Source: Ignavibacteria bacterium (GTDB taxonomy: Bacteria; Bacteroidota; Ignavibacteria; Tepidaquicellales; OLB5). From it: a DNA stretch of 41,144 bases. The stretch is from NCBI GenBank assembly GCA_030835085.1, contig JAUQWQ010000142.1, forward strand, positions 1 through 41,144. The letters are read 5' to 3'. Position numbers and translations under genes: made by a program. The stretch's first letter is position 1. Each line of letters opens with the position of its first letter. Below the pieces are notes generated by a model. It ran no database searches and was not told the origin of the DNA. It saw nothing but the letters and a program-made list of their open reading frames with translations. Shown in pieces: positions 14,009 through 24,279 of the stretch.

Positions 14009-14073
14009 CAACTCCGTAGGAGTTGAACATTTATAGGATTGTAAAAAATAACAACACGACTCCATGGGAGTCG
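14009..14073. repeat. Pair of CTCC/GGAG hairpins
   Basis: Two 17-nt perfect hairpins occur 31 nt apart: CAACTCC-GTA-GGAGTTG at 14009-14025 and CGACTCC-ATG-GGAGTCG at 14057-14073. Their stems differ by a compensated base-pair change (A-T versus G-C). They lie in the 189-bp gap between the TolB-like gene and the peptidase gene. Confidence 0.7.
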
Positions 14074-16281: not shown

Positions 16282-16304
16282 AAAAAAGGGGCTTTCCAGC
16301 CCCT
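16282..16304 (-). terminator. Terminator of the DUF4920-like gene
   Basis: The stem AGGGGCT/AGCCCCT with loop TTCC is followed, in minus-strand direction, by a U-run (A-run at 16282-16287). It lies about 70 nt after the stop codon of the minus-strand gene ending at 16374. Confidence 0.75.
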
Positions 16305-16373
16305 CAAACTCGTTTGCGTTCAAGAAAACCCATCGGGTTTTCGCAGTCCCGCCTTGGCGGGATTACTTTTGCC

Positions 16374-21732: not shown

Positions 21733-23184
21733 CTAAATTCCGAACAGATTTGAACAATAACCAGCCCAGTTCATTAGTGGGGATACAAAAATACCAAAGA
21801 ATATTGCGGAAAACAATAGAATTAACAACATTGCATGGGGTAACGTTCCAATTTTTAGGGGAATTTGAGCACTTTTTCCGGTAAAAATTGCTGTGGAGAG
21901 CCTGAATATAAAGTACAGAAAAACGACTGAGGAAATTATTCCGGAAGCTATAAGCCAAAAGTAATTATCCAAACCCGGTAATGAATACAAGATAATTTTT
22001 GAGTTGAATCCGGAAGTCAAAGGAAAACCTGCAGAAGATATAAGAAAAAATACAAAGGAAAGAAATAATAGTTTATCCTTTCTGCCAAGTGACCTTAATC
22101 CGGCAGTATCTGTCACATTGTATTTTGTGATAATCAGATTAATGCAGAAAATAATACCGAGCGAATTTACAGCAAAGATCACAGTTCCGGATATAAATGC
22201 AGCCAGTCCGGCTGTTGAACCCGAAATAAGTCCGATAAGCAAATATCCCGCCTGTGAAATTATTATATATGCCGCGATCTTCTTCAGGTCATATTGCCAT
22301 AATATCACTAAATTACCTGCTAGAATTGAACACACCGAAATTACTGAAAGCAGTAATTTCCAATTCACTCCGCTCAAAAAAGTCAATTGTTCGGCTGATG
22401 CTATAAATGTATTTTGATCCTCAAGAGCAGTGAAAATAAATCTGCCAATTACAAATAGCACAGCTATAACATTAATCAGTGCAAACTGCACGAAGTGCGC
22501 AGTTTTAAGTTTACTGCCAATCACCGGAAAACTTATATTGAACGGTGCCAGTATAGATATAAATGATAATCCTGCGGTGATCAATATAACTGATAATATC
22601 AGGACCAATGTGTTAAACGGATTGAATGACAGGTATTTTGATATCAATGAATATTCACCTGTACCGGTTAAACCATAAAGCAAAGTAATGCCGTAGAGCA
22701 TAACTGCCATGAACATTGAGCTGAATACGAAGTACCTGATTGCTGGTTTTAATTCATAATATACCAGCAGGTATAACGGAATAACCATAACCTGCAGAGA
22801 TATAAACATCATAAATATATTTGATGAGCTGAGGGCAAGTAATGCACCTATATTTGAAACTAAAATTAAAGTAAATTCAAAAGGCTGTGATTTTTTATCA
22901 AAGAAAGATAATGCAGAAAATGCCATAACAGTACTAAGTATTACTCTTGCACCATATGAATAATGGTCCGCTGTTAACATTCCACCAAATAATTGCTGCG
23001 GAGCATAGTAAGCTTGCGTATAGCTAAAGAGGGCTGAAAGTATTATCCCTCCCGAGAAAATGAAATATGCTGCAGGTAATTCTTTCTTTGCCCGGCTGCT
23101 GATTAAATTTAATATTAAAACGGTAAAGGATAATGTAATTTCAGGAAGAAAATTGAAGAGAATATTAATTGTTTCCTGGTTCAA
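21733..23184 (-). CDS. NuoN-like complex I membrane subunit, diverged
   Basis: A 483-residue, about 14-helix membrane protein of the NuoL/M/N antiporter-like family. It aligns with NuoN through NIFMMFISLQVMVIPLYLLV, RYFVFSSMFMAVMLYGITLLYG, NLVILWQYDLKKIAAYIIISQAGYLLIGL and GFPLTSGFNSKIILY. Key positions differ from canonical NuoN. The TM5 glutamate of the usual LELxSLPLY motif is Gln131. The usual KYF lysine is Arg150. The PFHxWxPDVYxGAPT loop is replaced by LAPFNISFPVIGSK. The TM12 lysine is kept (K396). It is separated from NuoJ/K-like genes by the tRNA array, and its 5' end overlaps the GIY-YIG gene by 20 nt. Whether it still moves protons is doubtful. Confidence 0.82.
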   Translation of the reverse strand: MNQETINILFNFLPEITLSFTVLILNLISSRAKKELPAAYFIFSGGIILSALFSYTQAYYAPQQLFGGMLTADHYSYGARVILSTVMAFSALSFFDKKSQPFEFTLILVSNIGALLALSSSNIFMMFISLQVMVIPLYLLVYYELKPAIRYFVFSSMFMAVMLYGITLLYGLTGTGEYSLISKYLSFNPFNTLVLILSVILITAGLSFISILAPFNISFPVIGSKLKTAHFVQFALINVIAVLFVIGRFIFTALEDQNTFIASAEQLTFLSGVNWKLLLSVISVCSILAGNLVILWQYDLKKIAAYIIISQAGYLLIGLISGSTAGLAAFISGTVIFAVNSLGIIFCINLIITKYNVTDTAGLRSLGRKDKLLFLSFVFFLISSAGFPLTSGFNSKIILYSLPGLDNYFWLIASGIISSVVFLYFIFRLSTAIFTGKSAQIPLKIGTLPHAMLLILLFSAIFFGIFVSPLMNWAGYCSNLFGI

Positions 23185-23437
23185 TTATATTATGATTGAT
23201 CAATTTTCTTAAAAATTTTCTTCTGGATGAAACCTTCAATTCTTTTTCACGTCTGAAAGCCGAAGCCCTGTCAGGCACTTCTTCAAAGTAAATTATTCTG
23301 TAAGGAAGGTACTTCTTTGTTGAAAGCACTTTGCCTTCACTATGCTGCTTAAATCTTTTTTCAATGTTATTTGTCTGTCCTATATACAGCCTGTCATGCA
23401 GATCCGAATACAGGCAATAAACAAAGAATTTACTCAT
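23165..23437 (-). CDS. GIY-YIG domain nuclease-like protein
   Basis: A 90-residue single-domain protein: FVYCLYSDLHDRLYIGQTNN carries the (G)IY...YIG core (YIG at 18-20), then Arg28 in EKRFKQH, and a C-terminal catalytic Glu region (FRREKELK, about 61-68). It belongs to the short UPF0213/YhbQ-like branch of GIY-YIG nucleases, whose targets are mostly unknown. It lies directly between a tRNA-Leu-derived repeat array and the NuoN-like gene, overlapping the latter by 20 nt. The location beside hairpin-filled tRNA copies invites the idea of a role in DNA rearrangement there, but related genes also occur as cargo elsewhere. Confidence 0.9.
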   Translation of the reverse strand: MSKFFVYCLYSDLHDRLYIGQTNNIEKRFKQHSEGKVLSTKKYLPYRIIYFEEVPDRASAFRREKELKVSSRRKFLRKLINHNIIEPGNN

Positions 23438-23457
23438 AAATGAAGATCTAAGATTTG

Positions 23458-23660
23458 TACCGCCAAACGACTTCCTCCGCTAAAGCGTTTTAAGTCAGGA
23501 CTTCCTTCGCTGCTACCGCAGCTCTGTAAGTCAGGGACTCTCACCGTTACAAAGTTGCCTCTACTGGATTTTGAGTCTTTTGTGCGCTTATGCTGGAACT
23601 GTGTATCAGTAGAAAGCTATGACTTGCGAATGCGGAGCAGTCGAAAGTTTCTACCAATTC
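23458..23660 (-). pseudogene. tRNA-Leu copy A, enlarged and 5'-truncated
   Basis: On the minus strand the 3' acceptor (TGGCGGT), variable arm region and anticodon region (ACTCAAAATCCAG) match the intact tRNA-Leu. The T-loop is replaced by two tandem hairpin modules, each bounded by GACTTCCT and TAAGTCAG (about 23469-23535). Further sequence of about 70 nt separates the anticodon from a D-arm remnant (TCTACCAATTC on plus). The 5' acceptor strand is missing. It cannot fold into a normal tRNA. Confidence 0.7.
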
Positions 23661-23680
23661 AATACTTATAAAAAAATTTG

Positions 23681-23764
23681 TACCGCCAAACGGAGTCGAA
23701 CCGTTACAATGTTGCCATTACTAGATTTTGAGTCTAGCGCGTCTACCAATTCCGCCATGGCGGC
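23681..23764 (-). tRNA. tRNA-Leu (anticodon CAA)
   Basis: An 84-nt cloverleaf including A73. The acceptor GCCGCCA pairs with TGGCGGT (one G-U at the end). The D-stem is GCG/CGC with loop GAATTGGTAGA, and the anticodon stem CTAGA/TCTAG has loop CTCAAAA, giving anticodon CAA (reads UUG). A long class II variable arm (AATG-GCAA-CATT) and T-arm AACGG-TTCGACT-CCGTT are present. CCA is not encoded. It is the only structurally normal member among four related copies in 23458-24279. It shares its 5' flank (ACTTAAAATTAAATGAAC on plus) with copy C. Confidence 0.93.
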
Positions 23765-23833
23765 AAGTACAACTTAAAATTAAATGAACTTTTTATCTTT
23801 TTTAAAATATTTGTTTTGTTTTTAAACCCTTAA

Positions 23834-24004
23834 TACCACCAAACGACTTCCTTCGCTGCTGCCGCAGCTCTGTAAGTCAGGGACTCTCACCGTCACAATG
23901 TTGCCATTGCTGGATTTTGAGTTCTAGTGCGCTTGACTTGCTTTAACTTGTTAAAGTAAGTTCGGACAATTCCGCCATGCCTGTCCCGTCAAAGCGGGAG
24001 CGGC
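23834..24004 (-). pseudogene. tRNA-Leu copy C with three hairpin insertions
   Basis: A 171-nt relative of the intact tRNA-Leu. The anticodon loop (CTCAAAA) and variable arm (AATG-GCAA-CATT) are preserved. A clean 20-nt insert with a TCCCG/CGGGA hairpin lies in the 5' acceptor strand after GCCGC (23980-23999). A 35-nt insert replaces 7 nt of the D-loop (23933-23967) and forms a 12-bp stem with one mismatch. A 44-nt insert replaces the T-loop (23846-23889) with nested stems GACTT/AAGTC and GCTGC/GCAGC. The anticodon stem has a 1-nt insertion. The 5' flank is duplicated from the intact gene. Confidence 0.75.
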
Positions 24005-24072
24005 AAGTACAACTTTAAATTAAATGAACTGTATATTCTTACTGCAAAATCCTTTTTCTCTCAAAATGTTTT

Positions 24073-24279
24073 CACCGCCAAACAACTTCCTTCGCTGCTG
24101 CCGCATCTCTGTAAGTCAAGCCTTCCTTCGTAGCTTTGCTGCCTAAGTAAGTCAGGGACTCTCATCGTTACAATGTTGCCATTACTGGATTTTGAGTTCT
24201 AGTGCGCTCGACTTGCTTTAACTTGTTAAAGTAAGTTCGGACAATTCCGCGATGCCTCGCCCGTCATAGCGGGAGCGGC
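24073..24279 (-). pseudogene. tRNA-Leu copy D with hairpin insertions
   Basis: A 207-nt relative of copy C with inserts at the same three places: acceptor (24055-24074 region equivalent at 24255-24274), D-loop (about 24207-24242) and T-loop. The T-loop carries two tandem modules (ending TAAGTCAA and TAAGTCAG). The acceptor insert differs from copy C by several bases, but the CCCG/CGGG stem is kept. The discriminator base is changed, and the 5' flank diverges from the other copies. Shared insertion points show that it and copy C descend from an already enlarged ancestor. Confidence 0.72.

Follow-up and report, generated by a model that had tools for sequence, protein, structure and literature searches.

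A tRNA-Leu(CAA) array in an Ignavibacteria genome as the probable footprint of a homing-type GIY-YIG nuclease gene

The tRNA-Leu array and its inserts

The stretch of DNA analyzed here (41,144 nucleotides, hereafter the window) is contig C45 of a 4.05-Mb draft genome. Along its minus strand, in the direction of the tRNAs, an expanded tRNA-Leu copy (D) is followed by a second (C), the intact tRNA-Leu(CAA), a third copy (A), a GIY-YIG nuclease gene and a nuoN-like gene, and we read this part of the minus strand as the nuo region. The features of the array are as follows.

24074 to 24279, minus strand: expanded tRNA-Leu copy D (gapped alignment to the intact tRNA)
24005 to 24073, minus strand: spacer separating copy D from copy C; the part next to C, 24005-24066, duplicates the leader of the intact tRNA, 23765-23826 (repeat D6, 75% identity)
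23834 to 24004, minus strand: expanded tRNA-Leu copy C (gapped alignment to the intact tRNA)
23680 to 23764, minus strand: intact tRNA-Leu(CAA), the sole functional-looking copy (ARAGORN; Rfam RF00005, 58.2 bits)
23457 to 23660, minus strand: expanded, 5′-truncated tRNA-Leu copy A, beginning at tRNA nt 13 (gapped alignment)
23165 to 23437, minus strand: GIY-YIG nuclease gene, 90 aa (Pfam PF01541, E=1.2e-14), about 20 bp downstream of copy A

ARAGORN and Rfam found exactly one tRNA in this region, and the other three copies could be aligned to it, all on the minus strand, in agreement with the original prediction of one intact tRNA-Leu(CAA) amid three enlarged copies. Neither ARAGORN nor the Rfam tRNA model made a tRNA call for copies A, C or D, and the covariance-model scan that had been suggested as a check thus scored the intact copy alone. 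The flank upstream of the tRNA (60-70 nt) is present in duplicate, before the intact gene and before copy C, as had also been noted. Copies C and D carry acceptor inserts, whereas copy A lacks the 5′ strand of the acceptor and most of the 5′ half of the D-stem. The inserts were delimited by alignment to the intact tRNA.

24255 to 24274, minus strand: copy D acceptor insert, 20 nt, after acceptor nt 5 (TCCCGCTATGACGGGCGAGG)
24213 to 24241, minus strand: copy D D-loop insert, 29 nt, the same hairpin as in copy C (inverted repeat I3)
24084 to 24155, minus strand: copy D T-arm insert, 72 nt, two tandem modules (first module z 0.1, no better than shuffles)
23980 to 23999, minus strand: copy C acceptor insert, 20 nt, after acceptor nt 5 (TCCCGCTTTGACGGGACAGG; folding z -3.3)
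23938 to 23966, minus strand: copy C D-loop insert, 29 nt, an ACTT..AAGT hairpin (inverted repeat I2; z -3.2)
23846 to 23881, minus strand: copy C T-arm insert, 36 nt, a single CCTGACTT...AAGT module (z -2.9)
23579 to 23649, minus strand: copy A complex D-arm insert
23470 to 23535, minus strand: copy A T-arm insert, a pair of modules in tandem; one (plus strand GACTTCCTCCGCTAAAGCGTTTTAAGT) is also found in a dispersed repeat

Copies C and D are interrupted at the same acceptor point, in the D-loop and in the T-arm, so that the claim of inserts at defined places stands; the description of these inserts as clean hairpins does not, since their stems are imperfect and no perfect stem of at least 6 bp was found anywhere in the array. 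The arms of the D-loop insert are 92% complementary, and the D-arm and T-arm modules have the common form CCTGACT...AGT in opposite orientations. Tandem T-arm modules in copies A and D were borne out by the alignment. They do not replace the T-loop, as had been proposed: the insert splits the 3′ strand of the T-stem just past the loop, and the loop itself is mutated from TTCGACT to TGAGAGT. The acceptor inserts had been described as having compensated stems, but copy D breaks the basal pair that is present in copy C.

Single inserts folded better than shuffled sequences (z about -2 to -3.3), the exception being one T-arm module of copy D, whereas the RNA folding of whole copies was unremarkable (z -1.7 for copy C and +0.6 for copy D). 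These results bear on the suggestion that the enlarged copies are functional structured RNAs, such as tRNA mimics or decoys with expansion segments. It is true that the loops are expanded while the tRNA stems are often retained, and that the D-loop inserts of four species keep their hairpins despite having different sequences. However, about half of the congeners lack the arrays, the copies are truncated and some have no anticodon arm, half-tRNA copies at other loci would be unable to form a cloverleaf, and whole copies fold no better than shuffles. We therefore consider this explanation very improbable, and a functional expanded tRNA was rejected on distribution, truncation and folding.

The module pattern of the array gave three matches in the genome, all inside the array, while one 27-nt module of the window occurs once more in the genome, within a compound repeat, and is also found in congeners. 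A simple dispersed repeat that landed at the array by chance was rejected on these two results. The dispersed compound repeats of the genus (L002 1440-1600; L050-L053) contain nested hairpins and have one module in common with the tRNA-Leu array. Elsewhere in the window, three successive hairpins lie near a small predicted gene (16287-16362).

GIY-YIG genes and displaced tRNA copies

Neither the adjoining GIY-YIG gene nor the recurrence of such loci across tRNA genes and phyla appeared in the original prediction. We take this gene, with its tRNA, to be central to the locus and the enlarged copies to be what it leaves behind. The catalytic columns Y, YxG, R and E are invariant in 18 aligned GIY-YIG proteins, and the nearest solved structures by profile are UPF0213 proteins and SLX1. 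The phage and plasmid searches gave distant matches only, among them GIY-YIG proteins of Rhizobium phages (39%).

We compared the orthologous locus in 13 related genomes plus the window. The same nuo position is occupied in some and empty in others, the GIY-YIG gene being present in 8 of the 14 and absent from 6. Surplus copies of tRNA-Leu(CAA) were found in the window and in six relatives, every one of which has the GIY-YIG gene at the locus: G012 (four tRNA-Leu copies in all, the intact one included), G005 (two copies), G002 (the intact tRNA plus expanded and partial copies), G008 (the intact tRNA plus about six copies), G004 (partial D-arm copies) and G013 (one degenerate copy, in the order degenerate copy, GIY-YIG gene, intact tRNA). 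A lone tRNA and no GIY-YIG gene were found in G003, G006, G007, G009, G011 and G014, although in G009 the sequence after the tRNA resembles, in our reading, the end of a lost GIY-YIG gene. Extra copies were thus present in 7/7 genomes with the gene and in 0/6 without it (Fisher p=5.8e-4); G010, in which a GIY-YIG fragment ends at the contig end, was left out of this comparison. The copies at this locus lie mostly on the side of the intact tRNA rather than simply across the GIY-YIG gene. Arrays of the same type at the orthologous locus of at least four other genomes rule out an assembly artefact, a concern that had been raised for the array.

The association extends well beyond tRNA-Leu. With the window protein as query, about 70 GIY-YIG sites were found in 17 genomes. 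Roughly half of them adjoin a tRNA gene (for Leu, Asp, Ala, Met, Pro, Ser, Arg, Gly or Ile), in every case on the strand of the tRNA. About half of the GIY-YIG homologues of the genus had no tRNA detected nearby. In the window's own genome, four of the five homologues lie less than 250 bp from a tRNA gene, for which the probability by chance is about 1e-7. We also scanned 84,980 species genomes with an alignment of the Asp-linked GIY-YIG proteins, the broad GIY-YIG alignment being too variable for scanning, and chose loci by protein similarity alone. This survey yielded 58 loci in Bacteroidota, Ignavibacteria, Neomarinimicrobiota, Zixibacteria and Patescibacteria, mainly in the first two; 49 of them were within 400 bp of a tRNA gene, against a chance expectation of about 1-2%, and all 49 were on the same strand as the tRNA. 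Some 14 tRNA identities are involved. When tRNA identity was mapped on the GIY-YIG tree it required 23 changes, compared to 51.7 in shuffles, and this clustering indicates that lineages keep to their tRNA. An Rfam scan of the GIY-YIG loci without an ARAGORN tRNA added three more adjacent tRNAs and one 16S insertion, and mostly nothing else.

These findings leave little room for a tRNA gene that simply duplicated in tandem and decayed, with a GIY-YIG gene nearby by coincidence. The leader and copies in the window have evidently been duplicated in tandem, as such an account would have it, but it is contradicted by the survey, with its same-strand adjacency at 49/58 loci, by the displaced copies of many tRNAs and by the co-occurrence of gene and copies at the Leu locus, and we regard it as extremely improbable.

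Tandem tRNA arrays were seen at loci for Leu and Ile, and a doubling of the GIY-YIG gene at loci for Asp and Pro. In the tRNA-Ile(TAT) array of two congeners (G003, L101 1730-2420; G002, L102 1970-2850), the anticodon arm of the copies is replaced by ATCCCGCCGCAGGCGGGAGGG, and the array adjoins a GIY-YIG gene that is apparently seated in a T-loop. The Asp-linked GIY-YIG protein of G003 is 100% identical in Chlorobi bacterium OLB5 (contig LLZO01000203), which belongs to the window's genus. At a locus of a Sphingobacteriales MAG (L143), an 86-nt tRNA-Glu(TTC) called by ARAGORN has a long variable arm and resembles a Leu copy in which the anticodon has changed; a GIY-YIG gene and a true tRNA-Leu(TAA) lie beside it.

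At about 55 of 75 distinct loci, the same tRNA is found again as a partial copy on the far side of the GIY-YIG gene; the count stood at 60/79 before four duplicate loci and two neighbouring true tRNAs were dropped. Two layouts were observed, namely intact tRNA, GIY-YIG gene and 3′ part, or 5′ part, GIY-YIG gene and intact tRNA. In many of these displaced copies, a loop palindrome is the sole difference from the intact gene. Examples are the D-loop of tRNA-Arg in several Flavobacteriaceae (GGATA[CCTGCCTGCCGGCAGGCAGG]GAATAT), T-loops (GGTTC[...]GAATCC) and anticodon loops (GGTCTTG[...]AAAACC). At Asp-linked loci (L087 1980-2240 and others), the GIY-YIG reading frame continues into the displaced tRNA-Asp copy and ends at a stop codon within or next to the palindrome (CCC GAC TAG TCG GGA).

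The loop palindromes and their origin

The surplus copies are non-functional and carry REP-like palindromes in the D, anticodon and T loops and, in the window, also in the acceptor strand. Among clean inserts of at least 14 nt, 28 of 30 lie at loops or junctions compared to about 51% expected (p=7e-7), although the counts are in part dependent on one another, as a single insert may have been inherited by several related elements. The original prediction that pseudogene-like copies had been invaded by small palindromes at their loops is thereby upheld, and the targeting of loops is both real and general. The best palindrome stem was also stronger in displaced copies than in same-length windows nearby (Wilcoxon p=7e-7), the palindrome background being taken from individual loci and from pattern counts. 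The inserts have no target-site duplication. At their borders (n=30), GA stands to the right in 16 and TA or TC to the left in 18, the commonest site being T(A/C)|GA.

The insert palindromes are short (20-40 nt) and imperfect. The Arg palindrome CCTGCCTGCCGGCAGGCAGG is present in 0-10 copies per genome in the eight genomes counted; the assemblies of G060 and G062 have just one copy each, located in the displaced tRNA, while in other genomes it also occurs in intergenic repeats, once in the middle of a terminator-like hairpin (L223). The possibility had been raised that the modules lie at random genome positions with no preference for tRNA loops, and this fits to the extent that such palindromes do occur elsewhere, but not with the two genomes in which the displaced tRNA holds the sole copy. 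Y1 transposases of the REP-associated type were matched in six of the eight genomes, and several of those in the genus are flanked by palindromes of their own. We call the palindromes REP-like and regard them as no more than candidate members of a REP/RAYT family. In the window, the palindromes CAACTCCGTAGGAGTTG and CGACTCCATGGGAGTCG stand about 50 bp apart at 14009-14073 and are like those that flank a Y1 transposase in the congener G012 (L236). At the hairpin locus (L223 1059), the 20-nt palindrome occupies the exact centre of a long terminator-like hairpin, which suggests a taste for loops beyond tRNA genes.

One account of the palindromes is neutral colonization, in which REP-like palindromes moved by Y1 (RAYT) transposases favour single-stranded loops, tRNA copies free of constraint offer them suitable targets, and the GIY-YIG gene only makes the spare copies. 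The palindrome-flanked Y1 transposases of the genus and the lack of target-site duplication are consistent with this, as are the palindromes of the same type elsewhere, one centred in the L223 hairpin and others in nested dispersed repeats. However, nearly all displaced copies have a palindrome, often ahead of other changes, and the sole copies in G060 and G062, the latter having a palindrome but no Y1 transposase match, are not easily reconciled with it. We judge this account somewhat unlikely.

Alternatively, the palindromes might destroy or mark the target of the nuclease in the surplus copies, the loops being cut and then repaired with a palindrome that leaves an uncuttable site. The insert sites T(A/C)|GA match the core of RAWTSGAAC, the motif of the phage nuclease SegB, as does the T-loop GTTC|GAAT (PMC13096335), SLX1 is a branch-cutting nuclease, and the palindromes precede point mutations in the displaced copies. 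On the other hand, the neighbouring intact tRNA retains the same sites, and T-loop and D-loop sequences are conserved anyway, so that the motif match may come from position alone. Destruction of the target in this way seems to us unlikely.

We prefer a third account, as a conjecture that is no better than tentative, in which the palindrome is kept because it blocks recombination or folding of the displaced copy with the intact tRNA. Either event could lead to loss of the element or impair the tRNA. Between anti-recombination, target destruction and neutral colonization, the present data do not allow a choice.

The proposed homing-type element and known systems

Taking together the association and its strand, the displaced copies, the tRNA-specific lineages, the loop palindromes and the presence and absence of the gene at one locus, all of which are observed, we propose that the array is probably the trace left by a selfish GIY-YIG nuclease gene of the homing type, for which tRNA-Leu(CAA) serves as home. 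The gene would insert in or beside the tRNA gene on the sense strand, an event suggested by the anatomy of the loci. The element would bring or rebuild one intact tRNA, which would allow the host to survive, and the displaced part would stay across the gene as a surplus copy. The protein is predicted to cut its tRNA gene and to spread through repair, that is, by homing. The tandem surplus copies at the Leu locus would have arisen through repeated duplication, probably driven by nuclease breaks as for the phage enzyme SegB. The intact tRNA keeps the same loops uninterrupted, which we count against the homing reading, as we do the homologues of the genus with no tRNA nearby, the imperfect hairpins of the window and the siting of most Leu copies on the side of the intact tRNA.

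A more far-reaching version is also possible, although we hold it short of probable: that the tRNA genes of Bacteroidota and their relatives host a large unnamed class of minimal selfish elements, each comprising one GIY-YIG gene and a displaced fragment with a working loop palindrome, which might guard against self-cutting or make loss of the element lethal through a poisoned rebuilt tRNA.

Free-standing GIY-YIG homing genes linked to tRNAs are already known from phages, and we regard the element at the Leu array as a variant of them. SegB of phage T6, a GIY-YIG enzyme, cuts within tRNA genes with a preference for RAWTSGAAC and drives the tandem amplification of tRNA and segB (PMC13096335); judged by its letters, this motif reads as the reverse complement of a T-loop. 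SegB of phages T4 and T6 is likewise encoded by a small free-standing gene adjoining tRNA genes of many identities (PMC13096335). The elements described here differ in being chromosomal, in Bacteroidota, Ignavibacteria and others, with lineages tied to particular tRNAs, and in having displaced tRNA halves with loop palindromes, whereas the word "hairpin" is absent from the SegB paper (PMC13096335). They resemble REP palindromes and their Y1 transposases (PMC3733652, PMC6006769) in the short palindromes, the lack of target duplication and the palindrome-flanked Y1 transposases of the genus. They differ in that genomes hold very few copies (0-10 of CCTGCCTGCCGGCAGGCAGG in each), which are concentrated in displaced tRNAs.

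In the open-access literature that we searched, we found no earlier account of GIY-YIG elements that are chromosomal and linked to tRNAs and whose displaced tRNA copies hold palindromes. If our reading is correct, many tRNA genes in a major bacterial phylum harbour a very small parasite of the homing type, overlooked because annotation labels it merely a "GIY-YIG nuclease family protein". The partnership of SegB with tRNAs would then reach from phages to chromosomes, a mobile gene could inhabit an essential tRNA gene without splicing, and the loci would document, in natural replicates, the entry of palindromes into tRNA loops. With dozens of lineages on different tRNAs, the choice of target, self-protection and the movement of palindromes become directly testable.

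Integrative elements use the 3′ ends of tRNA genes as attachment sites, where an intact tRNA is rebuilt and a partial copy is left across the element. The present loci likewise have an intact, probably rebuilt tRNA with a partial copy on the other side, but they lack an integrase, each unit spans about 0.3 kb and has a single nuclease ORF, and both 5′ and 3′ partial copies occur. The double-hairpin elements of Allomyces mtDNA and the Rickettsia palindromic elements are likewise small hairpins inserted in RNA genes, and to our knowledge they have no link to a tRNA-adjacent GIY-YIG gene with displaced tRNA halves. Group I introns with GIY-YIG genes occur in the anticodon loops of tRNAs, and here too a GIY-YIG gene is lodged within a tRNA gene, in some cases within its anticodon loop; in contrast to those introns, tRNA function is kept by a duplicate copy and not by splicing. 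An Rfam scan of the window up to E=1 gave no group I intron match, and an intron was rejected as the explanation of the inserts, as the original prediction had also concluded. At a locus of Candidatus Amesbacteria (L140 2011-3824, MEXP01000001), a GIY-YIG gene lies within an enlarged 16S rRNA gene and is probably an intron-borne homing gene.
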